Source: Rhodobacter aestuarii
GTDB taxonomy: Bacteria > Pseudomonadota > Alphaproteobacteria > Rhodobacterales > Rhodobacteraceae
Assembly (NCBI RefSeq): GCF_900156655.1
Contig: NZ_FTOG01000005.1
Coordinates: forward strand, 1 to 64,000
Direction of reading: 5' to 3'
DNA: 64,000 bases
The notes under the pieces are model-generated. The model worked only from the letters and a program-made list of their open reading frames with translations. It did no database searches and was not told where the DNA came from. Below are positions 12,638-28,354 of the stretch, one piece after another. Made by a program: the position numbers and the translations under genes. The stretch's first letter is position 1; the number at the start of each line of letters is the position of its first letter.

Positions 12638-13132
12638 TCACACCCCGCCCGAATGCACGACCTCGTAATAGGTCTTCTCCAACTCGGCCTTATGCTCGGT
12701 TTCTTCTTTGGCGAGGAATAAAAACGCATCGCGCAGCGGGCCTGCGGGCGCGGTTTTGGCCAGTTCGGTATATTGCTCCATCGCCGCCGTTTCGCGCATC
12801 AGCGCATATTGCAGCACGGCTTGGTCGTCGGGGTTGGGGCCAAGATCGGGGGTTTGCACGCAATCTGAAAATTTCGGGTCCGCGACGGGGCGGGTGATCT
12901 CTTCGGCCAAAACCGCCTCCACCGCCGGGTTTTGCGCAAGCTCGGTGAAAATGCGGATATGCTCGGCTTCTTCTTCGGCCAGCTCCTCCACCAGCCAGCG
13001 CAGGTCTTTGGACACTTTGGGCACAAGCTCGGAATAGAACCGATGCGCAACGCGTTCAAATTCGGTCGCGACCTCAAAGATTTCGCGCACCGTTGTTTTG
13101 CCTAAGAGCCGCTCTTTGTTGGCTTCACTCAT
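12638..13132 (-). CDS. Rubrerythrin-like ferritin-fold protein, last gene of the Mrp/oxidoreductase operon
   Basis: A 164-residue four-helix protein of the ferritin-like/rubrerythrin class. Likely di-iron ligands lie in FERVAHRFYSEL, EELAEEEAEHIRIF, ALMRETAAMEQYTELA and LAKEETEHKAELEKTYYE, two repeats of Glu plus ExxH. There is no C-terminal rubredoxin domain. Such proteins reduce peroxide or protect iron-sulfur enzymes from oxygen. Its ATG overlaps the stop of the upstream flavoprotein gene as ATGA, so the two are translationally coupled. This suggests it protects or takes electrons from the complex. Confidence 0.85.
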   Translation of the reverse strand: MSEANKERLLGKTTVREIFEVATEFERVAHRFYSELVPKVSKDLRWLVEELAEEEAEHIRIFTELAQNPAVEAVLAEEITRPVADPKFSDCVQTPDLGPNPDDQAVLQYALMRETAAMEQYTELAKTAPAGPLRDAFLFLAKEETEHKAELEKTYYEVVHSGGV

Positions 13133-14928
13133 TGCACCACCTCCCCTTGGGCAATCGCTTCCATCACTGTGCGCGCCGCGCGGTGACCATCGGCCACCGC
13201 GTTGATCACATCGGGGCCTTTGACCGCATCGCCCGCCGCAAAAAGCCACGGTTCCGAGGTGCGCATCTCGCTATCTATTTTGATCCGGCCCCGGTTCCAC
13301 TCCAGCTTTTCGGTCAAGGCGTCGCCCAAAAGCGAGGTATCGGCCATTTGCCCGATCGCCTCGATCACCAGCGCGCCTTGGTGGATTTGTTCGTCGCTTT
13401 CATCATAGGCGGGGGCAAAGCGCCCCTCGGCATCAAAGATCGAGGTCACCGCCCAAGTGCGCAGCCCCGTCACTTGGCCAGAGGGATCGCGCATCACCTC
13501 TTGCGGGCCGCGGCTGTCGAGGATGAGAACGCCTTCCTCATCGCCTTCGACCAGTTCTTCTTTATCGGCCAGAAAATGCGCGCGGTCTTCCAGCGCGGTG
13601 AGGGTGAGGCCCACGCGGCCATATTTGATCTTTTGCAGCCGCGCCATTGAGCGCGCGATGTCAAAGGCCACATTGCCGCCGCCAATCACCACCGCCGTTT
13701 CGGGCACCGGCACGGTCGGGTCCCCCGCCGTGATGCGGCGCAAAAGGTCCACCGCACGCTCCACGCCAGCGCCTTCAGAGCCCGGAATGCGCGTGCCGCG
13801 CCCCATTTGCAGCCCGATGGCCAAGATCACCGCGTCATGGGATTGGCGCAGGTCTTCCATCTGTACATCAACGCCCACCACGGTCGCGCATTTGATCGTG
13901 ACCCCCATCGCCTCGATCACCGCGATGTCACGGTCGAGCGCATCATAGGGCAGGCGATATTCGGGGATGCCATAGCGCATCATGCCGCCGGGTTTGGGCA
14001 GCGCCTCGTAAACGGTGACCTTCACGCCCTCACGCGCCAGATCATAGGCCGCCGTCAGCCCGCCGGGCCCCGCGCCAATGATCGCGACGCTTTTGCCTGT
14101 GGCGGGTTTTGGCGCTCCGATCAGCTCCACCCGGCGCTCCAGCGGGACGTTGTCGACGATATGGCGCTTGAGCCAACGGATCGCGATCGCATCGCCCTCA
14201 TGCACCGCCGCGCAGGAGGTTTCGCATTTATGGGTGCAAATGCGCCCGCAGACTTCGGAAAACGGGTTTGTCTCGTAAAGCAGTTGCAAGCCACGGTCAT
14301 AATCTTGGTCGCGCACGGCGGCGATATAATCGGGGATCGACATATGCGCGGGGCAGGTGGCGACGCAGAGCCCGCATTCAACGCAGCGATCCGCCTCCAA
14401 AATCGCCTCTTCGCGCGTGTAGCCCACGCAAATCTCGTTGAAATTGTCGATCCGCTCATTGGCGTGCAGTTCGCCCATCGGGGACCGGGTCGTGCCAGAC
14501 AGCACCCGCCCGTTTTCGCGTTTATAGCCCGCTTGTTTGTCTTTCCACGGCTCGTTCAGGCCGGGGATGAAGCGGAAGGCATCGGGGTCGCTGTCCACCC
14601 AAGTGTATTCGTTCGACATGGTGAGCGAGCCGGTCATGCAAATATCAACGCACAGCGCACACCAGCAGCAGCGGCCATAGTCGATCATCGGGCGCAGCCC
14701 GCTGTCGCCTTTTTCGGTGTTTTGGCCTTCGACCGGGACCATATCAATCGCGCCGTTTTGGCAGATCGCCTCACAGGTGCCGCAGCCGATACAGGTCTCC
14801 ATATCGTTTTTATGAAAGCCCCGGTAATGCTCCGATGCTTCGCGGCTGAACGGGTCGGCAATGCTGACGGGCGCATCCAAAACGCGCTTCCAGACCGAGA
14901 ACGGGGTTAAAACCTCACGCAAAGACAT
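13129..14928 (-). CDS. NuoI-like 4Fe-4S domain fused to a GltD/NfnB-like NAD(P)H flavoprotein
   Basis: A 599-residue multidomain electron-entry protein. Residues 40-100 are a two-cluster ferredoxin domain (C46-x2-C49-x2-C52-x3-C56 and C87-x2-C90-x2-C93-x3-C97). A GltD-like domain follows with another motif C182-x2-C185-x2-C188-x3-CP and a C-x3-C-x3-C-x3-C set at 227-239. After these come the FAD site VAIIGAGPGGLTAAYD, the GGMMRYGIPEYRLP segment and the pyridine-nucleotide site VVIGGGNVAFDIA. It would pass electrons between NAD(P)H and the NuoBCD-like arm, in the place of complex I subunits NuoEFGI. The ATG at 14928 is preferred over a TTG five codons upstream. Confidence 0.9.
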   Translation of the reverse strand: MSLREVLTPFSVWKRVLDAPVSIADPFSREASEHYRGFHKNDMETCIGCGTCEAICQNGAIDMVPVEGQNTEKGDSGLRPMIDYGRCCWCALCVDICMTGSLTMSNEYTWVDSDPDAFRFIPGLNEPWKDKQAGYKRENGRVLSGTTRSPMGELHANERIDNFNEICVGYTREEAILEADRCVECGLCVATCPAHMSIPDYIAAVRDQDYDRGLQLLYETNPFSEVCGRICTHKCETSCAAVHEGDAIAIRWLKRHIVDNVPLERRVELIGAPKPATGKSVAIIGAGPGGLTAAYDLAREGVKVTVYEALPKPGGMMRYGIPEYRLPYDALDRDIAVIEAMGVTIKCATVVGVDVQMEDLRQSHDAVILAIGLQMGRGTRIPGSEGAGVERAVDLLRRITAGDPTVPVPETAVVIGGGNVAFDIARSMARLQKIKYGRVGLTLTALEDRAHFLADKEELVEGDEEGVLILDSRGPQEVMRDPSGQVTGLRTWAVTSIFDAEGRFAPAYDESDEQIHQGALVIEAIGQMADTSLLGDALTEKLEWNRGRIKIDSEMRTSEPWLFAAGDAVKGPDVINAVADGHRAARTVMEAIAQGEVVQ

Positions 14929-14932
14929 GGGC

Positions 14933-16111
14933 TTACCTTTCAATTTCCGGCGGATAGGTGTGCAAAGACACCATCAAGGCCGCGACGTCAGAGATATTGG
15001 TGCCGGGGATCAGATGTTCGAGCAGCGCCATCGCATGGGTGTAGCTGGGGCCACGCACATTGATCCGGCGCGGGTAGCCCGAGCCATCGGTGACAAGGTA
15101 ATAGCCATATTCGCCGCGGGAACATTCGCCCTTGATATAGGTCTCGCCGCGCGGGATTTTCCAATGCAGGACATTGGGGAGTTTGGCCATCACCGGCCCG
15201 TCTTTCGGCATTTTCTTAAGGATCTGGCGGATCAGGTCGATTGAGGTCTGAATATCCGCGCGGCGCACCTTGGCGCGGGTGAAGATGTCTGAATCCATGC
15301 CCGTCGCGACCTCAAAGTCGAGTTGGTCATAGACCAGATAGGGGCTGTCTTTGCGCACATCTTTCGCCACACCGCCCGCGCGGGCATTGGGGCCGGTGAC
15401 GCCATAGGGTTCAAAAAGCGCAGGCTCGATCACGCCAATCCCTTTGGTGCGGAGTTGGAAGACCGAATTGGCAAACATCACCTTATCGACATCGGCCAAA
15501 TAGGTCTCGGCGGTTTGCAACACCTCTTCCATCCGCGCGGCAAACCCCTCGGGCAGATGCCCGCGCACGCCGCCCGGCAGGATGAACATGTGATAGATGC
15601 GCGCCCCGGTCAGTTCCTCAAACCGGTCCAGCATCAAATCGCGGACATAGGTCATCCATTGCCCGGTGATGCCCAGCCCCAGCGCGCCGCCAATGCCGCC
15701 CAAAAACATCATATAGCTGTTGAAGCGGCCCATCTCCAAAATCAGCGTGCGCATCCAAGTGGCCAGTTCGGGCACCTCGATCCCCGCGAGTTCCTCGACC
15801 GCTGCCGCATAGCAATATTCGTTGAAATCGGGTTCGGGCACGCAAACCCGGCACACGATCGGGAAGACTTGGATGAAGGTGCGCCGCTCCATCAGCTTCT
15901 CAAAACCCCGGTGCAGGTAGCCCACATGGGTTTTACCTTCGACCACCTCATCACCGCACACGGTCAGTTCGACCGACATATTGCCAGTGATGCCGGGGTG
16001 GTTTGGCCCGTGCCAAAGCTTGAGGTATTTGCCGGTCTCTAGGTCGATCTCCAGCTTTCCGTCGAGGCCCGGTTGGGGGTATTCGCTGCGGTCTGGTTGG
16101 AAGGAAAACAT
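14933..16111 (-). CDS. NuoD/[NiFe]-hydrogenase-like large subunit without a complete Ni site
   Basis: A 392-residue homologue of the 49-kDa complex I subunit and of group 4 hydrogenase large subunits. Family marks include LWHGPNHPGITGNMS and YLHRGFEKLMERRTF, and GGVRGHLPEGF. Of the four cysteines that bind NiFe in hydrogenases, the N-terminal pair remains (C87-x2-C90 in PIVCRVCVPEPDFNEYC). The C-terminal pair is gone, since the protein ends SLHTYPPEIER. It therefore cannot be a normal hydrogenase. The retained pair is also unlike complex I and resembles Mbx/Ehr-type proteins. It docks on the NuoB-like subunit. Confidence 0.9.
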   Translation of the reverse strand: MFSFQPDRSEYPQPGLDGKLEIDLETGKYLKLWHGPNHPGITGNMSVELTVCGDEVVEGKTHVGYLHRGFEKLMERRTFIQVFPIVCRVCVPEPDFNEYCYAAAVEELAGIEVPELATWMRTLILEMGRFNSYMMFLGGIGGALGLGITGQWMTYVRDLMLDRFEELTGARIYHMFILPGGVRGHLPEGFAARMEEVLQTAETYLADVDKVMFANSVFQLRTKGIGVIEPALFEPYGVTGPNARAGGVAKDVRKDSPYLVYDQLDFEVATGMDSDIFTRAKVRRADIQTSIDLIRQILKKMPKDGPVMAKLPNVLHWKIPRGETYIKGECSRGEYGYYLVTDGSGYPRRINVRGPSYTHAMALLEHLIPGTNISDVAALMVSLHTYPPEIER

Positions 16112-16112
16112 C

Positions 16113-16643
16113 TCAGCCCCCCGGATAGAGTTTGGATTTCATATATTCGCGCGGGTCATGCGTGACGCGACCGGGCCGCTCGGCATAGGTTTGCTGCGAA
16201 TAGGCCAAACTGTCGAAATCACGCCGATAGGGGGGCAGGTCGGTCCAACCCTCCAAGATGAACTCTTCATCCAGCCGCGGTGAGCCGGGGAAGGTGATCC
16301 CGAACATCTCTTTCAACTCACGTTGATAGGTCGCCGCCGTGGGCCACAGATCGTGGATGCTGTCCATTTGCGCCGTGGTGCGGTCCAGCATCACCCGCAC
16401 GCCCAAGGTCAGATCGCGGGCGCGGTTGTTCATCATATAGGTCAGTTGAAACTGGCCCTCTTCAAGCCAATCCACGGCGGTGAGCAAAACCAAATGGCTA
16501 AAGCCTTGGGTGTCGCGCAACTCGGTCAGGAAACCGCGCAGGTTTGAGGCGGGCAGGGTGACGAAGGCCAGATTTTCGCGCCGGATTTCGAGCGGGCCAA
16601 GCGCATGGCGGGGGGTTAGAAGGGCATGAAGGTCGCGCATCAT
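16113..16643 (-). CDS. NuoC-like 30-kDa subunit
   Basis: A 176-residue homologue of complex I NuoC and hydrogenase subunit HycE-N/MbhK. The signature region is TYQRELKEMFGITFPGSPRLDEEF followed by PPYRRDF, written here as family landmarks near residues 105-140. It carries no cofactor and clamps the NuoB and NuoD homologues together at the membrane face. It begins 2 bases after the nuoB-like stop and ends one base before the nuoD-like ATG. Confidence 0.9.
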   Translation of the reverse strand: MMRDLHALLTPRHALGPLEIRRENLAFVTLPASNLRGFLTELRDTQGFSHLVLLTAVDWLEEGQFQLTYMMNNRARDLTLGVRVMLDRTTAQMDSIHDLWPTAATYQRELKEMFGITFPGSPRLDEEFILEGWTDLPPYRRDFDSLAYSQQTYAERPGRVTHDPREYMKSKLYPGG

Positions 16644-16644
16644 C

Positions 16645-17334
16645 TCACCAATTGTAATCCGGCATGTCCCAGTCCTTGATCACGGACTTCTGGGCGGCTT
16701 TGTAGCTGGCAAAGTTTTCGGCATAGCGGTTTGTGCCCTCGGCCTTGCCCGCACGAATGAGCTTTTTCAGTTCAATAAAGCCGTGCAAGAGCGCCTCTGG
16801 CCGGGGCATACAGCCCGCGATGTAAAGATCGACCGGCAGGTAATCATCGAGCCGCTTGATCGTGTTGTAACTGTCCCAATACATCCCGCCATTGATCGTG
16901 CAGGAGCCAAGGCCGATCACATATTTTGGCCCCTGCATCTGCTCATAGGCACGGATCGCGCGTTTGAGCGTTTTGACGCTGAGATAGCCCGAGATGATCA
17001 AGAGGTTCGCTTGGCGCGGCGTGGGGCGCCATTGCACGCCGTAGCGATATGCATCAAAGCGCGGCGTCATCAGCGGGCGCATTTCAATCGCCCCGCAGCC
17101 GGTGCCAAAGCCCAAAATCCACAAGCTGTTGGAACGCGCCCAGTTGTAGAAGTTCTCGACAATCTGGAAATAGGCCTTGGGGTGAACCTTGGGGGCCGCC
17201 TCGCAGAAGTAGTCTTTCAGCGGCTCAATGGTGATTTCTTGGCCGTCGGGCGTGGTGACGGTGCGCGGGCGCAGTTCTTCGCGCAAAGGCACGGTCGCGT
17301 CGATCTTGCGGAAGGTTTCGTCAATATCTTTCAT
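16645..17334 (-). CDS. NuoB-like (PSST) subunit with an altered N2 cluster motif
   Basis: A 229-residue homologue of complex I NuoB/MbhJ, which holds the [4Fe-4S] cluster nearest the catalytic site. Visible are RPTPRQANLLIISG, GLGSCTINGGMYWDSY with Cys145 and YIAGCMPRPEALLHG with Cys175. The usual adjacent cysteine pair (CCxxEM) is FGTGCGAIEM here: Cys80 is kept, but the next residue is Gly81. Only three of the four standard ligands are therefore visible, although Cys44 upstream could contribute. The N-terminus is extended by about 45 residues compared with compact homologues. Confidence 0.9.
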   Translation of the reverse strand: MKDIDETFRKIDATVPLREELRPRTVTTPDGQEITIEPLKDYFCEAAPKVHPKAYFQIVENFYNWARSNSLWILGFGTGCGAIEMRPLMTPRFDAYRYGVQWRPTPRQANLLIISGYLSVKTLKRAIRAYEQMQGPKYVIGLGSCTINGGMYWDSYNTIKRLDDYLPVDLYIAGCMPRPEALLHGFIELKKLIRAGKAEGTNRYAENFASYKAAQKSVIKDWDMPDYNW

Positions 17335-17337
17335 TGC

Positions 17338-18246
17338 TCACACCATCAGAATGGCAAGCACGCCAACCGGCACGCCCCATTTCATGAAGAAGCGGATCGA
17401 CTGCTCCACCCGGAAACGCGGATGCACCACGCCGATGAAGGCCGAGACCATGTAAAGGGCAAAGACCTTGATCGCGAATTCGCCCCAACTCGACGCGCCG
17501 CCGAAGAACAGGTTCATGTAGATCACGGTTTTCGCCACCGGGAAGATCGCGCGGTTGGTTTGCATCAGCGCGAGATAAGCGGAGTGGTATTCGGTGGGCG
17601 GGCCAATCGGAATTTCTTGCGGGGCCAGCACCACATCAAAGGGCGGGCGCATCATCGTGCCAACAAAGGCAAACATCGCCGCCACGGTCGCGAGCGGGTT
17701 GGTGAAAAGCGTCCAGTGGAAAAGCCCGCCTTGTTGGGCGGCCACAATCTCGGTGATGTTGAGCGTGTGGTATTGCACCGCAATCGCATAGACAGCGAGG
17801 GCGAGCGGCAGTTCCGCCATCGTCACTTGTGCAAGCCCACGCGAGACACCAATCGCCGCATGCGGATGCCCGCTTTCGCCCGCGCCAAGCGCCATGCCAA
17901 GTGTGCCAAAGAACACAAAGTAGAGCGCCAGCACCAGATCCCCCGCGAAGGAGAAGTTCTGCGCCCATGTCGAGCCGTAGATCGTTGGCACGAACAAAAG
18001 CAGCCCCACACCGCCCGCGAGCCGGAACACCGGGCCAAGGTAGAACATCACACCGTGTGTGATTTTGGAGCGTTGCGCGAAGTTCTTCACCAGATCGATG
18101 TAGTTTTGCCAAAACGGGATGCCGTGCCGCCCGCCCACACGCGCGGCGATCTTTTGTACGACGGCGGTCATGATCAGCCCATAGTTCAACACGATGAACA
18201 GCGTCAGCAGCGCGTAGGGGATTTGCACCCAGTGAAAACTGCTCAT
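17338..18246 (-). CDS. NuoH-like membrane anchor subunit
   Basis: A 302-residue membrane protein of the NuoH/HycD/MbhM family with about eight helices, which links the hydrophilic redox arm to the antiporter-like subunits. The cytoplasmic loop near residue 200 has the family landmark RPPFDVVLAPQEIPIGPPTEY. This is closer to hydrogenase-type (RPPFD..AP..I..GP.TEY) than to complex I quinone-chamber sequences. It overlaps the end of the antiporter fusion gene by ATGA at 18243-18246. Confidence 0.9.
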   Translation of the reverse strand: MSSFHWVQIPYALLTLFIVLNYGLIMTAVVQKIAARVGGRHGIPFWQNYIDLVKNFAQRSKITHGVMFYLGPVFRLAGGVGLLLFVPTIYGSTWAQNFSFAGDLVLALYFVFFGTLGMALGAGESGHPHAAIGVSRGLAQVTMAELPLALAVYAIAVQYHTLNITEIVAAQQGGLFHWTLFTNPLATVAAMFAFVGTMMRPPFDVVLAPQEIPIGPPTEYHSAYLALMQTNRAIFPVAKTVIYMNLFFGGASSWGEFAIKVFALYMVSAFIGVVHPRFRVEQSIRFFMKWGVPVGVLAILMV

Positions 18247-21200
18247 GCCACACCTCCCAGCGCGATCAGATAGACGGTCACCACAAACAAGATGACCTGC
18301 ACGGCATAGGTTTGCCCGTTGCCGCTATAGAGTTTGCGGGTGAACTCGGCGGTGCCCGAAAGCGCCTCGCTCACGCCGCCCCAGAACCGGGTGACGAGCG
18401 GCATTTCCATGAAGCCCATCGCGCGGCGATAGGGCGCGAAGAAGTTCCAAGCGAAATGGGTGGTTTCGGGGCGATAGGGGCGCTCGGCCGAGAAGACGAT
18501 GTTGAATTGTTTCACCTTCACCGCATCGTGGTTCTTGGCGATCAATATCCCGAAAAGCGTGACAAAGATCACCACGATCACCACCATGATCGCCACCGGG
18601 TTCCAGTTGCCAAAGGCGCTTTCCACCGCGCGGCCATGCCAGATAAGCGGCTGGTCTCCAAAGACCGTGCCCAAGAACCGGTCCACCCGTTGCAGCACTA
18701 GGCCGGGCACGATGGCAAAGCCGATCAGGAAGGCCACAAAGATCATTTGCGGCACCAAAAGCCAGATTGGCGCCTCTTTGATTTGGTGGTTTTCGTCTTT
18801 CAGTTGGCCCAAGAAGATCGTGTGGATCAGCCGGAAGAGGTAAAGGAAGCCAACCGGGCCGGACATGAAGATCAGCACCAGCGGCAAGCGCAGGTCGGTT
18901 TCCAAAATGGCGTTGTAGAAGATCCAACGCCCGCCAAAGCCCGAAAGCGGCGGCACGCCCGACATGGCGATAATACCCACCAGCACCGAGACAAAGGTGA
19001 AGGGCATCAGCGTGATCAGCCCACCCATTTTGTACATCAGCTTGGTGTGGGTGCGTTTGTAAACGCCGCCGACCGCCAAAAAGAGCATGGATTTATAGAC
19101 ATAGTGGTTGATGACGAACATCACCGCCAAAAGCCAGCCAAGGTGGTTCATCAGCGCCAAGCCAAAGAGCGCATAGCCCATTTGCGAGATTGAGCTATAG
19201 GCCAACAGCCGTTTGGCATCTTCTTGGAAGACGGCGAGCACCGCGCCGACAAAGGCCGAGATTGCGCCGATCCAAGCCAGCACATTGACCAGATCAACGC
19301 CATGCAGGCTTTGCCGCCCCATCGCCAAAAGCAACACCACCAGCCCATAAAGCCCGGCTTTCAGCAAAATGCCCGACACCATCGGCGAGACATCGGTTTC
19401 CGCCTCGGCATGGGCACCCGGCAACCAGATATGCACACCGACAGAGGCCGTCTTGGTCATGAAGCCCACGGCCAGCAGGGCAAAGACCCAAGGCGCCACC
19501 TGCTCTGGCACAAGGCTCAGCGCGCTAAGCGGGAAGGGGGTGACCCCATCGGCAGCAAGCGCAAAGCCCGAAAGCAGCACAAAAGCCCCGCCAAGCGAAA
19601 AGATCATATAGCTCAGCGCATGGGGTTCAGATTGCTTGCCGCGCAAAATCAGGAAGTAGCTGCCCAAGGTCATCACTTCCCAAGCGGCAAAGAACTCAAA
19701 GGTGCTTTGCGCTTCCAGCAAAAGCGCAAGCCCCGCATACATCAGCATTGCAGGCGGGTAGAAGCCAACCCGGCGGCCGTCTTCATTGAACGAGGCGAGC
19801 AAGATCACCGCCCCGCCCAAGATCATCACCAAAAGGAAGATCAGCCGCATCGGGTCATACACCCCGGCATGGGCGGCAAACCAATAGACAAGCGCCATGA
19901 TCGCGAGGCCGTTTTTGAGTTTCGCAGGCATCGGTTCGAGCGCAAGGAAGAAAAGCGCGGCGAGCATCGGCACGGTGGCAAACAGATTGCCGTTTTCCGA
20001 CAGATCGCCCCAAAGCGCGCCCAAGCCAAAGGCGGCGGCCAAAGTGATCAGCACCACCATGCAGTCGATTTGTTTCGGCCCCAAAGGCGTGTCGGTTTCG
20101 CGCTTCATCGCCATGCCGAACCAGCGGAACAGATAGACCGCTTCAATCAGCGTGCCGATCAAGATTGCGGCGAGGATCGGCAAGCGGTCGGTGGTGGCAA
20201 GCACCTGCGCCAATTCCCATTTGGCGTAAAAGCCGGGGAAGGGGGGCAGGCCCGTCAGCATCGCCAAAAAGGTGGCAAAGGCGATCACAAGCGGCGGGCG
20301 CACACGGATCGCGGCCCAATCCGAAAGCCCGCGCGCCTTGACCATGATCGACATCCAGAAAAGCCCGGCCTTGGCCACCGCATGGCTCAGCACCAGCCCG
20401 CCCGCGACGTAAAGATAGCCCTCGCCCAGCACATCTTGCTGGCCGATCACCGCAAGCAACAGCCCCAGCTGGCCAACAGAGGAATAGCCCAAAAGGCGGC
20501 GGTCATTGTCTTGGCGCAGCGCCACGATATTGGCGCCGATGAAGCTGATGAGCCCAAGCAATGTGAACATGGCAAACCAATCAGGGCCCGCTGCTTTCAC
20601 CAGCTTATCGGCCACCACCAGCATCGCCGTGCCGGAGGCAGCGGAAAAGACCGCCGAAAAACCGGGATGCGCGGCGGTGTAAACATCCAATGCCCAGCCG
20701 TTTGCGGGGAAGGGTTTCAGCTCCAAGACCACCGCGATCAAGATCAGGAACAGCGCCAGCCCCAGCCCGCTAAAGCCCATCGCCGTTTCGGGGATGTCGT
20801 CGATGTTGAGTGAGCCGGTCGCGTGATAGGTGAAGATGATGCCCACCAAGAGCAAGATCGTCACAAGCTGGCTGATGATCAGATATTTGAACCCCGCCGC
20901 AATCGCGCGGATGTCTTTGGACAAAAGCGCAAGGCCCCCGGTGGAGATCGCCATCAGTTCCAAAAAGACAAAGAGGTTGAACACATCGCGCGTCATCACA
21001 AGACCAGAGAGCGCCATGATCAGCACAAGCACCACGGCCATTGAGCCGCGCCCCATGCGGGTGAGCGCGGTGCGCAGTGCCAGCACCGCCAAAAGGCCCG
21101 TGAGCGTGATCAGCGTGATCGCCCCCGCCTCCATCAGGCCCATGCGCAGGTTGATGGCAAAAGGCGGCTCGGCGCCTGCGGTATAGATTTCAACCGGGGC

Positions 21201-21365
21201 GGCGCCTTGGGCGAGCACGATCAGCCAGCCCACAGCCATCGCCGCCATCAGCCCCAAAGCGCCCAAGGTCAGCCCAAGCGCCAGCACGGCGCGGCGGCGG
21301 TTTAACAGGCCCAGCCCGAAGGCGGTGCCAAGGCCAATGGCCAGAATAAGGATCGAGCTTACCAT
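18243..21365 (-). CDS. Fused double antiporter subunit (MrpD/NuoN-like plus NuoL/M-like)
   Basis: One 1040-residue membrane protein holds two proton-translocating modules that are usually separate genes. Module 1 (about 1-480) has the helix-5 glutamate in NLFVFLELMAIST, then FKYLIISQ and LDVYTAAHPGFSAVFSAASG. Module 2 (about 490-1000) has FFAAWEVMTLGSYF, KTASVGVHIWLPGAHAEAET and LLAYSSISQMGYALFG. Both keep charged residues of the ion path. The single frame has no stop or frameshift, and motifs of both modules are intact, so the fusion is real. In the archaeal Mbx order these would be subunits H and H'. Confidence 0.93.
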   Translation of the reverse strand: MVSSILILAIGLGTAFGLGLLNRRRAVLALGLTLGALGLMAAMAVGWLIVLAQGAAPVEIYTAGAEPPFAINLRMGLMEAGAITLITLTGLLAVLALRTALTRMGRGSMAVVLVLIMALSGLVMTRDVFNLFVFLELMAISTGGLALLSKDIRAIAAGFKYLIISQLVTILLLVGIIFTYHATGSLNIDDIPETAMGFSGLGLALFLILIAVVLELKPFPANGWALDVYTAAHPGFSAVFSAASGTAMLVVADKLVKAAGPDWFAMFTLLGLISFIGANIVALRQDNDRRLLGYSSVGQLGLLLAVIGQQDVLGEGYLYVAGGLVLSHAVAKAGLFWMSIMVKARGLSDWAAIRVRPPLVIAFATFLAMLTGLPPFPGFYAKWELAQVLATTDRLPILAAILIGTLIEAVYLFRWFGMAMKRETDTPLGPKQIDCMVVLITLAAAFGLGALWGDLSENGNLFATVPMLAALFFLALEPMPAKLKNGLAIMALVYWFAAHAGVYDPMRLIFLLVMILGGAVILLASFNEDGRRVGFYPPAMLMYAGLALLLEAQSTFEFFAAWEVMTLGSYFLILRGKQSEPHALSYMIFSLGGAFVLLSGFALAADGVTPFPLSALSLVPEQVAPWVFALLAVGFMTKTASVGVHIWLPGAHAEAETDVSPMVSGILLKAGLYGLVVLLLAMGRQSLHGVDLVNVLAWIGAISAFVGAVLAVFQEDAKRLLAYSSISQMGYALFGLALMNHLGWLLAVMFVINHYVYKSMLFLAVGGVYKRTHTKLMYKMGGLITLMPFTFVSVLVGIIAMSGVPPLSGFGGRWIFYNAILETDLRLPLVLIFMSGPVGFLYLFRLIHTIFLGQLKDENHQIKEAPIWLLVPQMIFVAFLIGFAIVPGLVLQRVDRFLGTVFGDQPLIWHGRAVESAFGNWNPVAIMVVIVVIFVTLFGILIAKNHDAVKVKQFNIVFSAERPYRPETTHFAWNFFAPYRRAMGFMEMPLVTRFWGGVSEALSGTAEFTRKLYSGNGQTYAVQVILFVVTVYLIALGGVA

Positions 21366-21715
21366 TTCAGATCCATGAATTGCGAGATGTCGAGGCTGCC
21401 GCGCAGCCGGAAAAGGCGGTAGGCATAGGCGAGCATCAGCGCGGTGACGCCCAAGCCAATGACAATCGCCGTCAGCACCAGCACTTGCGGCACCGGGTCG
21501 ATGATGCGGGCCGCCGCTTGGCCCGCAGGCACGGCGCTATCCAAAATCGGTGCGGTGCGATGCGCCATATAGCCCACGCTCACCAGCACCACATTCACCC
21601 CGGCATCGGCGATGGTGAAGGAAACGATCATCCGCAAGATGTCGCGGTTCGTCAGCGCGCCATAAAGGCCCAAAAGGATCAGCGTGAAGCCGATCAAAAG
21701 CGAGACTTGCGCCAT
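21359..21715 (-). CDS. MrpC/NuoK-like antiporter subunit
   Basis: A 118-residue three-helix protein of the MnhC/MrpC family, related to NuoK. It shows GLYGALTNRDILRMIVSFTI and VLVLTAIVIGLGVTALMLAYAYR, written here as landmarks near 18-38 and 78-100. An upstream GTG at 21718 in the same frame would give a GTGA overlap with the preceding gene; the ATG at 21715 gives TGATG. Either is possible. It overlaps the next gene by 7 bases. Confidence 0.88.
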   Translation of the reverse strand: MAQVSLLIGFTLILLGLYGALTNRDILRMIVSFTIADAGVNVVLVSVGYMAHRTAPILDSAVPAGQAAARIIDPVPQVLVLTAIVIGLGVTALMLAYAYRLFRLRGSLDISQFMDLKW

Positions 21716-22416
21716 CACGCATCCTCCGTTTCTTCAAGGCTTTCGAGGATCGAGGCGAATTCTGCGCCCACTTTGAGGCCAATCAGCACCGAGACGATCG
21801 GGATGATCCCCGCCGAGAAAAGCGCACCAAATTGGCCAAGCGGCAGGAGTTTGTTGTCTAAGAACCCGCCTGCAAACAGCATCCCCAACAGGCCCAACCC
21901 CACAAAGGCAAGGCCCGAGGCGCTTTCGACGCGGTGGATGATCTTATGGCCAAACCGGCGCGACGGATCGGCGAGCAGCATCAGCAGCGCGCCCGAGGCC
22001 AAGATCGCCCCGCCTTGAAAGCCGCCGCCCGGTGTGAGGTGGCCGTTTGCCATCACATAGGCCCCCAAAAGCGCAATCAGCGGGAGCAACATTTTCGTGC
22101 CGGTGGTGAGCAATTCGCCGGAGGGCAAAAAGCCCGAGCCGGAGGCGCCTTTTGGCGCTTTTGACCGGCTCAGCACCAGTGAAACGATGGCGGCGGTCAA
22201 GAAAAGCACCGTCACCTCGCCCAGGGTATCAAGGCCGCGCCAAGTGATCAGCACGGCGGTGACAACGTTTTGCGCGCCGACTTCCTCTTGCGCATGGGTG
22301 GCGTAATAGGCGGCGGTGCGGTTGAGCTCGGTCGCGGGCTCAAAGCCCATCGTCAGCGTGAGGAACGCGCTGCCCAAAATGAAAAGCATCAGCCCAATCA
22401 AAGCGTTGCGGATCAT
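21715..22416 (-). CDS. MrpB-like subunit with N-terminal MbhE-type segment
   Basis: A 233-residue protein. The first 85 residues resemble the last part of MrpA (the MbhE unit), with RNALIGLMLFILGSAF and TAVLITWRGLDTLGEV. The rest is MrpB/MnhB-like, with the family mark ANGHLTPGGGFQGGAILASG. The same join of MrpA tail and MrpB occurs in some Mrp operons. It is part of the ion-translocating half of the complex. Confidence 0.9.
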   Translation of the reverse strand: MIRNALIGLMLFILGSAFLTLTMGFEPATELNRTAAYYATHAQEEVGAQNVVTAVLITWRGLDTLGEVTVLFLTAAIVSLVLSRSKAPKGASGSGFLPSGELLTTGTKMLLPLIALLGAYVMANGHLTPGGGFQGGAILASGALLMLLADPSRRFGHKIIHRVESASGLAFVGLGLLGMLFAGGFLDNKLLPLGQFGALFSAGIIPIVSVLIGLKVGAEFASILESLEETEDA

Positions 22417-22664
22417 TTCTTATCCTCCCGCCGGATCCGGCCCAGCACGTAGAAAAAGAGGAAGGTGGTCAGGCCCGAGCCAATCGCCGCTTCGGTCATG
22501 GCCACATCGGGCGCGGCCAAAAGCACAAAGAGCACCGAGGCAAAAAGGCTCAAGAGCCCCGCCGCCAAAACGGCGGTGGCGGTTTGGCGGGTGAGCAGCG
22601 CGACGAGCGCCGCCCCGATCATCCCCGCACCGCATAAAAGCGTGGCCAGCATCAACAGCGTCAT
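22413..22664 (-). CDS. MbhD-like (DUF4040) antiporter subunit
   Basis: An 83-residue, three-helix protein with the DUF4040 signature LLAAPDVAMTEAAIGSGLTT. It corresponds to the part of MrpA that precedes its C-terminal tail and to hydrogenase subunit MbhD. It overlaps both neighbours by 4 bases. Confidence 0.88.
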   Translation of the reverse strand: MTLLMLATLLCGAGMIGAALVALLTRQTATAVLAAGLLSLFASVLFVLLAAPDVAMTEAAIGSGLTTFLFFYVLGRIRREDKK

Positions 22665-22993
22665 CGCTTGGCCTCCTCATCTGCGGCGAGCGCATCAAAA
22701 CGGGTGCGCGGATCGGGTTTGACGCCTGCCCGGTGCGCGGCGCGCGCCAGCACCTGCGACGAGAGCGGGTTGGTGAACATCAAAAACAGCGCGATCAGCA
22801 CCAGCTTGATGGTCCAGCCCGGCATCAAGATCGCTGCGCCCGCCATTGAAAGGATCATGCCGAGCGTTGTCGCTTTGGTGCCCGCTTGAATGCGGGTCCA
22901 TGTGTCGGGCATGCGCCACACGCCAAGCCCGCCAAGCGCCAGAAAAACGGCCCCAGCGGTCAGCACGATTGCGCCCAAAAGGCTTTGCATCAT
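22661..22993 (-). CDS. MrpG/MnhG-like antiporter subunit
   Basis: A 110-residue membrane protein of the MnhG/MrpG family. The family pattern GLGVWRMPDTWTRIQAGTKA and TTLGMILSMAG is clear, followed by FLMFTNPLSSQVLARAAHR. Two ATG codons in tandem (22993 and 22990) can serve as start; the first overlaps the mnhF-like stop. Confidence 0.9.
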   Translation of the reverse strand: MMQSLLGAIVLTAGAVFLALGGLGVWRMPDTWTRIQAGTKATTLGMILSMAGAAILMPGWTIKLVLIALFLMFTNPLSSQVLARAAHRAGVKPDPRTRFDALAADEEAKR

Positions 22994-23244
22994 TCGCCCC
23001 CTTCCAAATAGCGCGCGGCGACAATGACGCCGAGGAAGGACAAAAGCGCATAGACCAGAGCGACATCGAGATAGATCGCCCGGCCCGTGGCGAGCGCAAT
23101 GATCACCAGCCCCGCGACCGAAATGATGGTGAGCGCGTCAAAGGCGACGACCCGGTCCACCGCGCGCGGGCCAATGGCAAAGCGCGCCGCCGAAAGGGCA
23201 ATGCCAAGGGCGGCCAACAGGCCCGCCAGCCAAAGCTCAGCCAT
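22990..23244 (-). CDS. MrpF/MnhF-like antiporter subunit
   Basis: An 84-residue protein with three predicted helices and the MnhF/MrpF landmark RAVDRVVAFDALTIISVAGL, followed by YLDVALVYALLSFLG. It lies between the E- and G-type subunits, as in all Mrp operons, and overlaps the mnhE-like gene by 8 bases. Confidence 0.9.
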   Translation of the reverse strand: MAELWLAGLLAALGIALSAARFAIGPRAVDRVVAFDALTIISVAGLVIIALATGRAIYLDVALVYALLSFLGVIVAARYLEGGE

Positions 23245-23725
23245 AGATCACCTCCAGATATTTCTCAAAGCCCGCCACAATTTTGCGGGTGGCGGCTTCG
23301 GGGTCGGTGGTCTCGGCCACGACCCAATGGACATAGATGTGCTCTCCCTCAATCTCGACAGAGAGCGTGCCGGGGGTGAGGGTGATGGAATTGGCCAGCA
23401 AAAGCCGCCCCACCGGGTGGGTGAGCTTGGTGCGGACCTTCACGAAAGCGGGTTTGACAGCGATCGTGGGCATCAACACGAGATGCGCCATCGACAGGTT
23501 TGCCTTGATCAGTTCTTTGAAGAAGAAGGCGATATAGCCGAGCGTTGCCAAAGGTTTGGCCTTGTATCCTGAGAGGAAAGACAGCCCGTTTGGCAAGAAA
23601 TAAGTGATCGCTGCTGCCACGATCAGCCCAACGACCGCCACATCGGGGGCGAGTGACCCATTGAGCAAAATCCAAAACAGGAATGTGGTGGCAAAGAGTT
23701 TTGCGGGTGCGAGCCTATCGCTCAT
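23237..23725 (-). CDS. MrpE/MnhE-like antiporter subunit, first gene of the operon
   Basis: A 162-residue protein of the MnhE/MrpE family. Visible are FATTFLFWILLNGS, the pattern VKVRTKLTHPVGRLLLANSI followed by TLTPGTLSVE, and IYVHWV. The ATG at 23725 was chosen because GGAGGA precedes it; the frame stays open 18 codons further. It begins a 13-gene unit running to 12638, with gaps of at most a few bases, so the operon promoter must lie in 23726-23925. Confidence 0.9.
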   Translation of the reverse strand: MSDRLAPAKLFATTFLFWILLNGSLAPDVAVVGLIVAAAITYFLPNGLSFLSGYKAKPLATLGYIAFFFKELIKANLSMAHLVLMPTIAVKPAFVKVRTKLTHPVGRLLLANSITLTPGTLSVEIEGEHIYVHWVVAETTDPEAATRKIVAGFEKYLEVIYG

Positions 23726-23827
23726 GGGGTCCTCCGCGTGGGGCGTGAGGGCGCGCTTGGGCAAACCTTCTCCGGTCACGGCAAACGTGTGCCGTGGCGC
23801 AGGGAAGAGATGGGGAAGGCGCGTCCG

Positions 23828-23977: not shown

Positions 23978-26900
23978 TCAGGCCTGTTCGCGCGACACCC
24001 GACCCGCCGCAGACATGATCAGCACATAAAGTGCGGGCACCATGAAAAGCCCGATGAAGGTGGAGGCGACCATGCCGCCGATCACCCCGATGCCAATCGC
24101 GTTTTGCGCGGCTGCCCCCGCGCCCGAGGCGGTGGCGAGTGGCAGCACCCCCAAGATGAAGGCCAGCGCCGTCATCAAAATGGGGCGCAGGCGCAACCGC
24201 GCGGCCTCGATTGCGGCGTCTTTGAGCGTGCTGCCTTGCTGGCGCAGGCTTTCGGCAAACTCGACGATCAAAATCGCGTTGCGCGCCGCCAAGCCGATGG
24301 TGGTGAGCATGCCGACCTTGAAGTAAACGTCATTCGACTGACCAAAGAGCCAAGCCGCAATGAGCGCGCCCAAAACACCGACGGGCACCGCCAGCATCAC
24401 CGCAAAGGGAATGGTCCAGCTTTCGTAAAGCGCGGCAAGGGCAAGGAAGACGACCAAGACAGAGATCGCATAAAGCAGCGGGGCTTGGCTACCCGATTGC
24501 TGCTCTTGATAGCTGAGCCCTGTCCACGCGAGCCCATAGCCGCCATCCAGCCCTTCAACCAGGTCTTGCATGACCTCCATCGCCGTCCCAGTCGAAACGC
24601 CACTCGCCGCAGAGCCGGACACCGAAATTGCCGAGGTCGCATCAAACCGGCTCAGCGTCGGCGGCACCGGCTCCCAGCTTGTGGTGGCAAAGGCGGCAAA
24701 GGGCACCATCTCGCCCGAAGAATTGCGGGCATACCAATCAAAGATGTCTTCGGGCTGCATCCGGTAGGGGGCCTCAGCCTGCACGATCACCGGGCGCAGC
24801 GAGGAGCCAAGCACGAAGTCATTCACCTCATTGCCGGCAAACAGGGTCGAGAGCATCGCGTTCACTTCCGACAGGTTCAGCCCAAGGCTTTCCAGCTTTT
24901 GCTGATCCAGCGTCAGCCGCAGCGCGCTTTCGGTCTCGGTCCCATCCACGCGCACGGTGGTCAGGCGTGGGTCTTGGCCCGCGCGGGTTTCCAACTCTTT
25001 TGCCGCCGCTTGCAGGGACTCGGTGCCGCGCCCGGCTTGGTCGATCAGGTACAGGCTAAAGCCGCCGGTGTTGCCAAGGCCCCGGATTGCGGGAGGCTGC
25101 ATCACAAAGACCCGCCCCGCGCGGATCGAGGAATAGGCCGCATTCGCCCGCCCGGCAATCGCGCTCGCGGTCAGGGTTGCATCGCCTGCGCGGGCGTCAA
25201 AGTCTTTCAGCTTCACAAAGACCATCGCGCGGTTTTGCCCCGAGCCACCAAAGCCAAAGCCAAGCGAAGCAAAGGTGCTTTCGACGCCATCCGCCTCGGT
25301 ATTCAGAAGGTAGTCATTCACCCGGTCCAAAACGGCGCGGGTTTGTTGCGTGGTGGCCCCGTCATCAAGCTGGATGATCGTCATCAAAACGCCCTGATCC
25401 TCGGTCGGGATGAAGGACGATGTGAGCCGCTCATAAACCGCCCAAGCCCCACCCAGCACAAACAGAAGGGCGGCAAGCATCAGCACCGGGGCGCGCAGGC
25501 TTTGCCCCACGGCGCGGCCATAAAAGGCGGTGAAACGATCCAGCCCGCCATTGAACCAGCGCGCGGGTGCGAATTGCGGCTCGGCATCCCCCAATCGCAA
25601 CAGCCGCGCCGACATCGGCGGCGACAGAATGATCGCGACAAGGAGCGAAAGCGCCATCGCGGTGACCATGGTGAGCGAAAACTGCCGATAAATCACGCCG
25701 GTGGAGCCCGGGAAAAACGCCATCGGCAGAAAGACCGCTGCCAGCACAACGTTAATGCCGACAAGGGCGGCGGTAATTTGCCCCATGCTTTTGGCGGTGG
25801 CCTCGGGCGCGCTGAGCCGTTCATCACGCATCAGCCGTTCGACGTTTTCCACCACAACAATCGCATCATCGACCAAAAGCCCGATCGCTAGCACCATGGC
25901 AAACATGGTCAGCGTGTTGATCGAATAGCCCGCCGCATAAAGCACCGCGAGCGTGCCCAGCAGCACCACCGGCACGGTGATCAACGGAATGAGCGTGGCA
26001 CGCCAGCTTTGCAAGAAAACGATCAGCACCAGCACCACAAGGCCCACCGCTTCAAATAGCGTATGTTCCACCTGCTGGATTGAAAGCTCGACAAAGGGAG
26101 AGGTGTCATAGGCGATGCGGAACTCCAGCCCCGCAGGCAAGGCGGCGGAAAGGCGGTCCAGCGTTTCGCGTACGGCGGCGGAGGTATCGACCGCATTCGC
26201 CCCGGTTTCCAAGTTCACGCCAAAGCCCGAAGCTGCCGTGCCGCTAAAGAGGCTATCGCCACCATAGCTTTCTTGGCCAATCTCGACCTTGGCCACATCG
26301 GCAAGCCGCACCGTGTCGCCACCTTCTTCGGTTTTCAGCAGGATCTGCTCAAAATCCGCCACTGAGGTAAGCTGGCTTTGCGCGGTGATGGTGGCGGTGA
26401 ATTGCTGGCCTTCCAAGGTGGGCTGGCTGCCCAGCGAGCCCACAGAAACGGTGGTGTTTTGTGCCTGCACCGCCGAGGTCACATCGGCGGGCGTGAGTTG
26501 AAACCGCACCAGCGCCAGCGGGTCGAGCCAAATCCGCATTGCGTAGCCCGAACCAAAGCTGTTCACCCCGCCCACGCCATCCGTGCGCTCAATCTGGCCC
26601 TCCACCTGCTCGGACATGATATCCCCGAGTTGCAGCGTGGAATATTGCCCGGTGGTGTCGACCAAGGCACCGATCATCAAAATATCGGAGGAAGAGCGCG
26701 AGACCGTCACGCCTTGGCTTTGCACCGAACTGGGCAGGCGGCTTTCCACCCGCGAAACCTTGGTCTGCACATCGTTTTGCGCATCGACCGGATCGACCGA
26801 GCCATCGAAGGTCAGCGTCACAGAAGAAGACCCCTCGCGCGAGGTGCTTTCCATATACAAAAGCCCGTCGAGCCCGGTCAGGCTTTCTTCAATCACCCGG

Positions 26901-27085
26901 GTCACGGAATTCAGCACCGCATCCGCTGTGGCGCCCGAATAGGTGGCCGAAATGCGCACCGTGGTGGGGGCGATATCAGGGTATTGCGCGACGGGCAGCC
27001 GGGTGTAAGAGGCCGCACCCGCCAGCATCATCATGATTGCCAGCACCCAAGCCAGAACGGGGCGTTTGAGGAAGAAGGTTCCCAT
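23978..27085 (-). CDS. RND efflux pump inner-membrane protein, HAE1/AcrB family
   Basis: A 1035-residue proton-driven drug exporter. It has 12 helices and two large periplasmic domains, with the opening FFLKRPVLAWVLAI and a conserved N-terminal TRLPVAQYPDIAPTTVRISA. The paired helix-4 aspartates are in GLLVDDAIVVVENVER (near 402-403). In AcrB a helix-10 lysine completes the proton relay (GLSAKNAILIVEFA); here that position is arginine (GLAARNAILIVEFA, near 935). The start MGTFFLKR lies 4 bases after the adaptor stop. No outer-membrane channel gene is nearby. Confidence 0.93.
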   Translation of the reverse strand: MGTFFLKRPVLAWVLAIMMMLAGAASYTRLPVAQYPDIAPTTVRISATYSGATADAVLNSVTRVIEESLTGLDGLLYMESTSREGSSSVTLTFDGSVDPVDAQNDVQTKVSRVESRLPSSVQSQGVTVSRSSSDILMIGALVDTTGQYSTLQLGDIMSEQVEGQIERTDGVGGVNSFGSGYAMRIWLDPLALVRFQLTPADVTSAVQAQNTTVSVGSLGSQPTLEGQQFTATITAQSQLTSVADFEQILLKTEEGGDTVRLADVAKVEIGQESYGGDSLFSGTAASGFGVNLETGANAVDTSAAVRETLDRLSAALPAGLEFRIAYDTSPFVELSIQQVEHTLFEAVGLVVLVLIVFLQSWRATLIPLITVPVVLLGTLAVLYAAGYSINTLTMFAMVLAIGLLVDDAIVVVENVERLMRDERLSAPEATAKSMGQITAALVGINVVLAAVFLPMAFFPGSTGVIYRQFSLTMVTAMALSLLVAIILSPPMSARLLRLGDAEPQFAPARWFNGGLDRFTAFYGRAVGQSLRAPVLMLAALLFVLGGAWAVYERLTSSFIPTEDQGVLMTIIQLDDGATTQQTRAVLDRVNDYLLNTEADGVESTFASLGFGFGGSGQNRAMVFVKLKDFDARAGDATLTASAIAGRANAAYSSIRAGRVFVMQPPAIRGLGNTGGFSLYLIDQAGRGTESLQAAAKELETRAGQDPRLTTVRVDGTETESALRLTLDQQKLESLGLNLSEVNAMLSTLFAGNEVNDFVLGSSLRPVIVQAEAPYRMQPEDIFDWYARNSSGEMVPFAAFATTSWEPVPPTLSRFDATSAISVSGSAASGVSTGTAMEVMQDLVEGLDGGYGLAWTGLSYQEQQSGSQAPLLYAISVLVVFLALAALYESWTIPFAVMLAVPVGVLGALIAAWLFGQSNDVYFKVGMLTTIGLAARNAILIVEFAESLRQQGSTLKDAAIEAARLRLRPILMTALAFILGVLPLATASGAGAAAQNAIGIGVIGGMVASTFIGLFMVPALYVLIMSAAGRVSREQA

Positions 27086-27089
27086 CGGC

Positions 27090-28280
27090 TCAGTTCCCCG
27101 CAGCGGAGGTATCGGTGGCGGGGGCATCTTGCACCACGCCTTGCGCATCAATTGTCACCGGCACGGTGGTGATGGCGGACCCGTCTTGCAGATTGGTCAG
27201 CCCATCGAGGATCAATTGGTCCCCGGCTTTTACGCCATCGGTCACGACCCAAGCGTTTTGATAGCTGCCGTTTTCGGTAAGGGTACGTTTTTCGGCCTTG
27301 CCCGCCACGGCGACAAAGGCGCTGAGCGTGCCATCACTGCCGCGTGTGGTGGCGCGCTGCGGCACCAAAACGGCACGGGTGGTGCCGAGTGTCGTCTCCA
27401 CGCGCAGAAATTGGCCGGGCAGAATTTTCCGTTCCGGGTTGTCAAATTGCAGGCGCATCTCGGTGGTGCCGGTGGTCGACGAAACCGTGGTCGAGGGCGA
27501 GACGAAGCTTCCCTTGCGATCATAGGTTTCGCCGGTTTCCAACGTGAGCGAGATATCGACTTGGTCGGCGCGCGTCAGCGTGCCCGCCTCCCACATGGCG
27601 CGGTGTTCCAGCATTTGACGGCTCGATTCCTTCACATCGACATAGATCGGGTCGAGCCGGGTCACGGTGGTCAGCGCATCGGCTTGGTTCGCGGTGACGA
27701 TTGCGCCCACCGAGACCGTGGCCATATCTGGCACGCCGGAAATGGGCGAGGTGATCTGGGTGCGGTCAAAATTGAGTTGCGCCATGTCGCGATCTGCCTC
27801 GGCGGAGGAAAGCGTGGCCTCAGCCTGCGCCACAGCCACGCGCGCGGCTTCCACATCCTCGGTCGAGATTGAGGTGGTCTCGAGCTTTTTGTAGCGCGCA
27901 TAGGTGGCTTTTGCAGCTTCGAGCGCGGCTTTTGCACCATCTACCGTTGCTTGAGCGGATTTGAGATCTGCCGCGTAAGTGTCTCCATCAATGGTGAAAA
28001 GTGGCGTTCCCGCACGCACTGGGCGGCCCGCTTGATAAAGGATTTCCGAAATGACCCCCGCGACACGCGGCCGAATGTCGACCTGTTCAAAGGCCACGGC
28101 ACGACCGGGCAGGGTGACGGTATAGGGCACATCGCTTTGGCTGAGTTCGATCACCCCCACTTGGGTGCTGCGCGCGCCTTGTGGCCCCTCTTGCGCCAGC
28201 GCGGGCGTTGCGAAGGTCAGCGCCAGCGCGGCCAGAAGCGTGCGGTGCAGTGGGGCGGAGGGGCGGAACATCAAGGTCAT
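27090..28280 (-). CDS. Efflux periplasmic adaptor protein (membrane fusion protein)
   Basis: A 396-residue AcrA/MexA-type adaptor linking an inner-membrane pump to an outer-membrane channel. Signal sequence TLLAALALTFATPALAQ; lipoyl half-motifs VDIRPRVAGVISEILYQAGR and DRTQITSPISGVP; a coiled-coil hairpin in between (about 105-170); and the beta-barrel part GQFLRVETTL. There is no lipobox. It is coupled to the RND gene, and lies 74 bases after a DHA2-type pump gene, so it may serve both pumps. Confidence 0.92.
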   Translation of the reverse strand: MTLMFRPSAPLHRTLLAALALTFATPALAQEGPQGARSTQVGVIELSQSDVPYTVTLPGRAVAFEQVDIRPRVAGVISEILYQAGRPVRAGTPLFTIDGDTYAADLKSAQATVDGAKAALEAAKATYARYKKLETTSISTEDVEAARVAVAQAEATLSSAEADRDMAQLNFDRTQITSPISGVPDMATVSVGAIVTANQADALTTVTRLDPIYVDVKESSRQMLEHRAMWEAGTLTRADQVDISLTLETGETYDRKGSFVSPSTTVSSTTGTTEMRLQFDNPERKILPGQFLRVETTLGTTRAVLVPQRATTRGSDGTLSAFVAVAGKAEKRTLTENGSYQNAWVVTDGVKAGDQLILDGLTNLQDGSAITTVPVTIDAQGVVQDAPATDTSAAGN

Positions 28281-28354
28281 GGCGGCTTTCGCAAAAGAGG
28301 GGACAGGAGCTAAACGCAGGCGCCGCAACTCTCCGTCGCTGCGGCGCAGAAGTA

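Follow-up and report, generated by a model that had tools for sequence, protein, structure and literature searches.

A conserved thirteen-gene operon of Rhodobacter aestuarii and other proteobacteria encodes a predicted NAD-linked variant of the archaeal membrane-bound sulfane sulfur reductase

The closest described relative of the system reported here is the membrane-bound sulfane sulfur reductase (MBS, formerly Mbx) of Pyrococcus furiosus, whose structure is PDB 6U8Y. According to the paper on this enzyme (PMC7684303), the proximal cluster has only MbsJ C28, C93 and C123 as ligands, the cysteine-free iron is proposed as the catalyst, MbsJ C25 and MbsL C85 and C385 are dispensable, mutants in them having left MBS active, and transfer of electrons from ferredoxin to sulfur yields 41 kJ/mol. 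Here we describe an operon of 13 open, co-directional genes on the minus strand (23779-12638) of a 64,000-nt stretch of Rhodobacter aestuarii contig NZ_FTOG01000005.1 (assembly GCF_900156655.1), hereafter the window; the host genome (G000) comprises 3.84 Mb on 31 contigs. Judged by sequence comparison, the operon almost certainly encodes an MBS-type complex, and we propose, at a probability of roughly one half, that this member of the MBS/Mbx type works in the membrane as an ion-coupled NAD(H):sulfane-sulfur oxidoreductase.

Sequence searches of the PDB returned MBS chains first for the core of the complex. The NuoB/MbsJ-like subunit (16645-17334) matched 6u8y_J best (2.7e-60, next 8.1e-39), the NuoD/MbsL-like subunit (14933-16111) 6u8y_L (2e-92, next 1.2e-63) and the NuoH/MbsM-like membrane anchor (17338-18246; Pfam NADHdh, 4.9e-45) 6u8y_M (9.1e-39, next 2.4e-12). 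For the NuoI part of the NuoI-GltD protein, 6u8y was best among NuoI-type PDB chains (4.2e-19, next 1.7e-9), while the C-terminal half of the 1040-residue fused double antiporter (18243-21365; Pfam Proton_antipo_M, 2.4e-79) had 6u8y_X, that is MbsH′, as its best match (1.6e-55) and the MbsH-like N-terminal half matched 6u8y_H. Trees were built from the operon and 20 chosen relatives, with complex I of the host, Escherichia coli and others, plus E. coli formate hydrogenlyase, as comparators. NuoB grouped with P. furiosus MBS at 100/99 and NuoD at 100/100, apart from complex I, in a set that held only one MBS sequence, had long branches flagged and left the complex I rows not on one side of a branch.

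The host also encodes an ordinary complex I, at a separate locus. The second NuoD match of the genome lies on contig C16, in a stretch (L013) that matches NuoB, C, D, E, F, G, H and I, and E. coli NuoE, F and G match this other locus, with no match in the 64-kb window at 1e-4. The initial annotation had called the operon Mbx/Mbs-like and had named two ways in which this might fail, namely NuoBCDH homologues nested inside ordinary complex I, or nuoEFG genes completing the operon as a normal complex I. Instead, the NuoB and NuoD trees point to MBS and the three Nuo genes sit in the separate complex I locus, and the likeness is strengthened further by 6U8Y being the closest solved relative of five parts and by the three-cysteine proximal cluster described below. 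The operon shares with respiratory complex I a NuoB, C, D, H and I-like core together with antiporter subunits, but it differs in having an Mrp module, in lacking NuoE, F and G in the window as well as the quinone residues and the tandem cysteines, and in its separate tree branch.

Compared gene for gene, the operon holds counterparts of MBS subunits A-B-C-D-E-G-H-H′-M-J-K-L-N, presumably in the same order as in the archaeal operon. The CVPEP motif of MbsL is also present in the NuoD-like subunit. Unlike in MBS, H and H′ are fused, N is fused to a GltD/NfnL-type flavoprotein, a rubrerythrin-like gene is added, the L-like subunit has an extra cysteine (C87) and the hosts are proteobacterial rather than archaeal. 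The canonical lysine of the MbsH-like half is also displaced: its position holds T, A, S or G in 76/76, and an invariant Lys254 lies about two turns past it. Loss of the proton pump from this half was considered and set aside, since Lys254 is nearby and the pairwise alignment there is shaky; the idea is kept only within the NADH-supply proposal given below. Direct entry of ferredoxin electrons without a flavoprotein, one of the MBS features against which the operon was checked, was not found, and the complex as defined by its sequence is therefore called an MBS-type variant, not MBS itself. In its mode of action it would probably resemble MBS at the active site and NfnL where electrons enter.

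The three-cysteine ligand set of the MBS proximal cluster is retained in the sequence. In the alignment, NuoB C80, C145 and C175 correspond to MbsJ C28, C93 and C123 and are kept in 85/85 sequences (the window, 4 genomes and 80 loci, with two pairs identical over the last 200 residues); Gly77, in the place of MbsJ C25, and Gly81, in the place of the second complex I cysteine, are equally constant. NuoD C90, the counterpart of MbsL C85, is kept in 78/79, and an additional C87 (Leu in MbsL), invariant in 79/79, forms with it a C87-x-x-C90 pair. At the place of MbsL C385 stands Tyr386 in 77/79, with a gap in the other 2. The substrate is somewhat likely to contain an S-S bond. A group 4 [NiFe] hydrogenase of the Mbh or formate hydrogenlyase kind was tried as a candidate and rejected: the C-terminal cysteine is absent (Tyr386), C87 and C90 are out of the register that we assume for the two NiFe-binding cysteine pairs of the hydrogenase large subunit, and NuoD has no NiFe site by motif.

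Electrons would enter through the NuoI/MbsN-like protein fused to the GltD/NfnL-type flavoprotein (13129-14943, likely start ATG 14928). Pfam identified Fer4_20 (2.4e-27) and Pyr_redox_2 (7.1e-26), the NfnL/GltD domain pair, and also Fer4_7, and in the PDB search the flavoprotein part matched NfnI (4.5e-66 and 8.2e-64) and similar enzymes, with which it shares a dihydropyrimidine dehydrogenase-type Fe-S domain and FAD/NAD(P) domains. The uncharacterised NCBIfam model PRK13984 ('putative oxidoreductase') spans the whole fusion, but at 838.6 bits the match falls under the cut-off of 946. The YRR motif of NfnI, which we take to mark the NADP(H) type, is replaced here by ALED, with E452 at the place of the second arginine in 68/70 and D or E at 453 in 68/70. 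Because the arginine motif has given way to Leu-Glu, NAD(H) is the likely point of electron entry. An NAD(P)H flavoprotein had been proposed; the flavoprotein stands, fused to NuoI, and its cofactor is narrowed to predicted NAD(H), not NADP(H). In the predicted structure of the fusion, the mean predicted local distance difference test (pLDDT) score is 75.6, with the NuoI part mostly below 50.

The two rows without E452 come from L037 (YRR) and L093 (RK). The L093 flavoprotein (L093:12399-14198) has TTRKEA where its relatives have TALED, which possibly reflects another cofactor preference. L037 holds a variant operon (L037:1831-14678) with two NuoB-like genes, Ala in place of NuoD C90, a YRR flavoprotein (47% identity) and, downstream, a different ferritin-like open reading frame (ORF); on this sequence evidence it is possibly an NADPH-linked subtype.

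Alpha-, Beta- and Gammaproteobacteria all contain carriers of the module, which is not special to the host genome. A contig scan gave 492 pattern matches and 478 relatives, and the best 80 of the 478 include Rhodobacterales, Thiothrix, Thiocapsa, Thiohalocapsa, Sedimenticola, Gallionella, Sideroxydans, Rhodoferax, Dechloromonas and Magnetovibrio. Genome samples that include the window's own genome contained the NuoI-GltD protein at 1e-60 in 1/149 genomes of the order, and NuoB at 1e-48 in 1/385 genomes of the class and 5/398 of the phylum. Gene order is the same in 83/84 further loci as far as each stretch reaches, all 13 genes being visible in 58/84, and 54 of the 55 loci whose DNA spans the operon carry all 13, the exception being L037; an order kept in this way across loci is therefore far beyond chance. 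Comparison of the flanks of the 84 loci and the window turned up no gene next to the operon that is conserved; the largest group of flanking genes, ABC-transporter ATPases, came from 9 loci. Among 72,556 plasmid records, 103 matched NuoB at 1e-30, none with 80% coverage and all below 60% identity, so that this collection holds no close plasmid copy.

Carriage of the operon goes together with genes for sulfur oxidation and CO2 fixation. We compared 41 carriers (the host, four phylum genomes and 36 genomes from the 80 loci, hand-picked mostly for long contigs and before the sulfur-gene searches) with 38 non-carriers (20 from the window's genus and family and 18 from the phylum sample), using p values that, here and below, ignore relatedness. 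SoxB over the cut-off was present in 35/41 carriers vs 12/38 non-carriers (p 1e-6), DsrA at 1e-60 in 30/41 vs 4/38 (p 1.5e-8) and RuBisCO at 1e-60 in 33/41 vs 11/38 (p 5e-6); 38/41 carriers vs 14/38 non-carriers had SoxB or DsrA. Urease, included as a control, was evenly distributed (27/41 vs 25/38, p 1). When an alphaproteobacterial subset, consisting of the host and 16 genomes drawn from L016-L035 (including a Rhodobium), was set against the 20 genus and family non-carriers, RuBisCO (14/17 vs 3/20, p 6e-5) and DsrA (7/17 vs 1/20, p 0.014) were again more frequent in carriers, and urease gave 14/17 vs 20/20 (p 0.09).

The host itself has SoxB and two RuBisCO matches, with no SoxC match and no DsrA match in its genome. 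Its contig C5 (L108:3436-10737) carries genes like HdrC, HdrB, HdrA, a second HdrB, a GcvH-type protein and DsrE2, which we take to be an sHdr/LbpA cluster for cytoplasmic sulfur oxidation; its first gene is preceded, at a distance of about 10 kb, by a RuBisCO gene. Taken together, SoxB, the sHdr-like cluster and RuBisCO imply that the host probably handles sulfane sulfur in the cytoplasm and may fix CO2. Two genomes of the same genus (G024 and G115) have no operon, no SoxB over the cut-off and no RuBisCO at 1e-60.

The last gene encodes a rubrerythrin-like protein (12638-13132, 164 residues from ATG 13132; Pfam Rubrerythrin, 1.9e-12 with the longer ORF). Residues assigned by pattern, E26 (or Asp), E55, H58, E114, E144 and H147, resemble a diiron site, and among 37 sequences (the window and 36 of 63 ORFs, chosen by length) H58 and E144 do not vary and E55, E114 and H147 are almost constant. 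The predicted model is ferritin-like (pLDDT 86.9). Its nearest relatives are TM1526 (1vjx), at 4e-5 by sequence, and also a thioferritin; Foldseek with the model found no match at E <=0.001, 1vjx being best at 4.9e-3. The protein also matches PRK12775 weakly (2.4e-4), a model for a fusion of GltD with ferritin, which hints that such ferritin-like proteins pair with GltD-type flavoproteins. The presence of this gene in the operon suggests use in oxic cells. One locus, L056, has no rubrerythrin-like match at 1e-5 within 10.6 kb downstream of NuoB.

We propose the following working scheme for the NAD(H):sulfane-sulfur oxidoreductase. Within the GltD-NuoI protein, electrons would travel between NAD(H), FAD and a series of [4Fe-4S] clusters and then reach the NuoB cluster, one iron of which would have no cysteine, and where the S-S bond of a polysulfide, persulfide or organic disulfide would be cleaved or formed, perhaps assisted by the adjoining C87/C90 pair of NuoD. 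NuoH would couple this event to the two fused antiporters and to the Mrp Na+/H+ module, and the rubrerythrin-like protein would probably protect or repair the exposed cluster in oxic cells. In sulfur-oxidising carriers the complex might serve mainly for NAD+ reduction, the ion-motive force lifting electrons from sulfide or persulfide slightly uphill while bypassing the quinone pool.

Simple energetics bear on the direction of this reaction. Ferredoxin lies at -480 mV and NADH at -320 mV, and together with the 41 kJ/mol given above these potentials leave about 10 kJ/mol per two electrons for transfer from NADH to sulfur. The break-even ion-motive force is then about 105 mV with one coupled ion per two electrons and about 52 mV with two, and since the force is usually at least 150 mV, the expected direction is towards NADH. 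The energetics and the type of host thus favour transfer from sulfide or persulfide to NAD+, but the complex may also run forwards, and mainly reverse operation, towards NAD+ reduction, is a tentative reading that we rate as somewhat less likely than not. The fuller proposal, that a reverse-running MBS driven by the ion-motive force feeds electrons from sulfide or persulfide to NAD+ around the quinones, yielding NADH for CO2 fixation in sulfur-oxidising proteobacteria, and that one MbsH-like pump has been modified to suit so small an energy gap, is doubtful as a whole.

The same complex might instead run forwards, reducing polysulfide or sulfur with NADH as a means of shedding reductant, for instance onto stored sulfur in anoxic conditions, at little or no gain in ions. 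Forward reduction is the direction measured for MBS (PMC7684303). Searches of the open-licence literature yielded no description of this operon in proteobacteria save for a passing mention of a 'putative Mrp-Mbx' in Endoriftia, the Riftia symbiont and a sulfur-oxidising chemoautotroph (PMC11636981). Passages of that paper cite sulfur reduction elsewhere for this complex and count it with those whose function or direction is not known; they also place it, along with genes for hydrogenase and sulfur globules, on the side of the reductive tricarboxylic acid (rTCA) cycle (PMC11636981). Yet about 10 kJ/mol per two electrons barely covers ion pumping, many carriers have sulfur-oxidation genes and RuBisCO, and the rubrerythrin-like gene suggests oxic use, so that forward operation as the main role also seems unlikely.

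Less probable still is an ion-pumping NADH:quinone oxidoreductase, in effect an additional complex I joined to an Mrp module. Homology to the complex I core subunits speaks for it, as do the NCBIfam models, NuoD passing one NuoD model (384.7 vs a cut-off of 360 bits) and NuoB two NuoB models (205.4 vs 116 and 158.6 vs 142.7 bits). Thr42 and Val91 of NuoD, however, stand in 79/79 at the places of Nqo4 His38 and Tyr87, which we take to be quinone residues of complex I, the tandem cysteines of NuoB are lost in all 85 sequences, and the trees and the separate ordinary complex I of the genome point the same way. Quinone, ferredoxin or a sulfur compound had been offered as the partner of the complex, and quinone looks the least likely of these because both quinone residues are absent. 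An Rnf- or Nfn-like complex in which ions drive electron transfer between NAD(H) and ferredoxin, or some other carrier of low potential, is very improbable: it would fit the closeness of the flavoprotein part to NfnI and the use of ferredoxin as the donor of MBS in P. furiosus (PMC7684303, in part), but the NuoI part that would accept ferredoxin electrons is already fused to the flavoprotein, the 13 genes include no separate ferredoxin subunit, and the three-cysteine cluster would be left without a role.

Several observations weigh against the proposed NAD(H):sulfane-sulfur oxidoreductase. Within the complex, NuoB C44, an N-terminal residue invariant in 85/85 and outside the range aligned to MbsJ, could be a fourth cluster ligand; the cofactor preference rests on one motif, which is basic in 2/70 rows (L037 and L093); and the direction depends on textbook potentials and also on concentrations and ion stoichiometry. 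In the genome comparison, the napA control was itself enriched in carriers, more weakly (21/41 vs 5/38, p 0.0003; alphaproteobacterial subset 6/17 vs 1/20, p 0.03), which means that part of the association reflects lifestyle or sampling. SoxB in the alphaproteobacterial subset (14/17 vs 10/20, p 0.08) was not significant alone, 3/41 carriers have neither SoxB over the cut-off nor DsrA, one of them with a partial SoxB, and in the four phylum carriers, L009-L012 (G536, G548, G533 and G606), which belong to families other than the window's, DsrA is present without any RuBisCO match at 1e-60. In the open-licence literature we found no report of activity for a member of the operon family. In Endoriftia, compared here by description only, expression of the putative Mrp-Mbx follows the rTCA cycle and not the Calvin cycle, to which most of the genes for sulfur oxidation are tied, and if this Mrp-Mbx is of the present type this would oppose a simple link to RuBisCO (PMC11636981, in part). 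Finally, for the six Hyf-like genes called 'Mbx' in Chlorochromatium, it has been argued that they do not serve sulfur reduction, since similar clusters occur outside sulfidic habitats (PMC4053972), an argument that could, by analogy, apply where carriers are not sulfur bacteria; passages of two further papers mention Mbx only generally (PMC6349859 and PMC10451490).

The remaining genes complete the 13-gene set that the initial annotation had listed, every member of which proved open, co-directional and supported by a Pfam match to its named family. The operon begins with the Na+/H+ antiporter subunit MrpE (MbsA-like; 23237-23779; MNHE, 2.2e-36), the longest ORF starting at GTG 23779 and an in-frame ATG, the boundary given by the initial annotation, lying at 23725, and continues with MrpF (MbsB-like; 22990-23244; MrpF_PhaF, 1.3e-17), MrpG (MbsC-like; 22661-22993; PhaG_MnhG_YufB, 3e-23) and an MbhD/MbsD-like subunit (22413-22664; MbhD, 3e-18). 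Next come an MbhE-MrpB fusion (21715-22416; MnhB, 5.2e-23, and MbhE, 3.8e-10) and MrpC (MbsG-like; 21359-21718; Oxidored_q2, 4.4e-21), the former being of the type found in P. furiosus MbsE, itself an MbhE-MbhF fusion in which MbhF equals MrpB according to a published subunit homology table (PMC8415708). A NuoC/MbsK-like subunit (16113-16643; Complex1_30kDa, 8.5e-25) lies between NuoB and NuoD. Taking ATG 14928 as the start of the NuoI-GltD gene and ATG 13132 as that of the rubrerythrin-like gene, the 12 junctions comprise 8 overlaps of 4-8 bases and 4 gaps of 1-4 bases. Immediately upstream of the operon lie genes for an AcrB-type efflux pump and an HlyD-type adaptor (23978-28427). In two genomes of the same genus, with one 20-kb stretch around LigB examined in each, LigB alone of 13 window neighbours matched, the AcrB- and HlyD-type genes not being found there, and these stretches therefore offer no clean empty site.

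An MBS active-site motif that is NAD-linked and accompanied by a diiron protein in sulfur-oxidising proteobacteria would bring cluster-based S-S chemistry into ordinary mesophilic bacteria, and carriers of the operon would offer cultivable systems for studying the evolution of complex I. The usual account of NADH formation in sulfur lithotrophs is reverse electron flow through complex I with quinol as the electron source, and the operon described here could change how NADH production in these organisms is accounted for.

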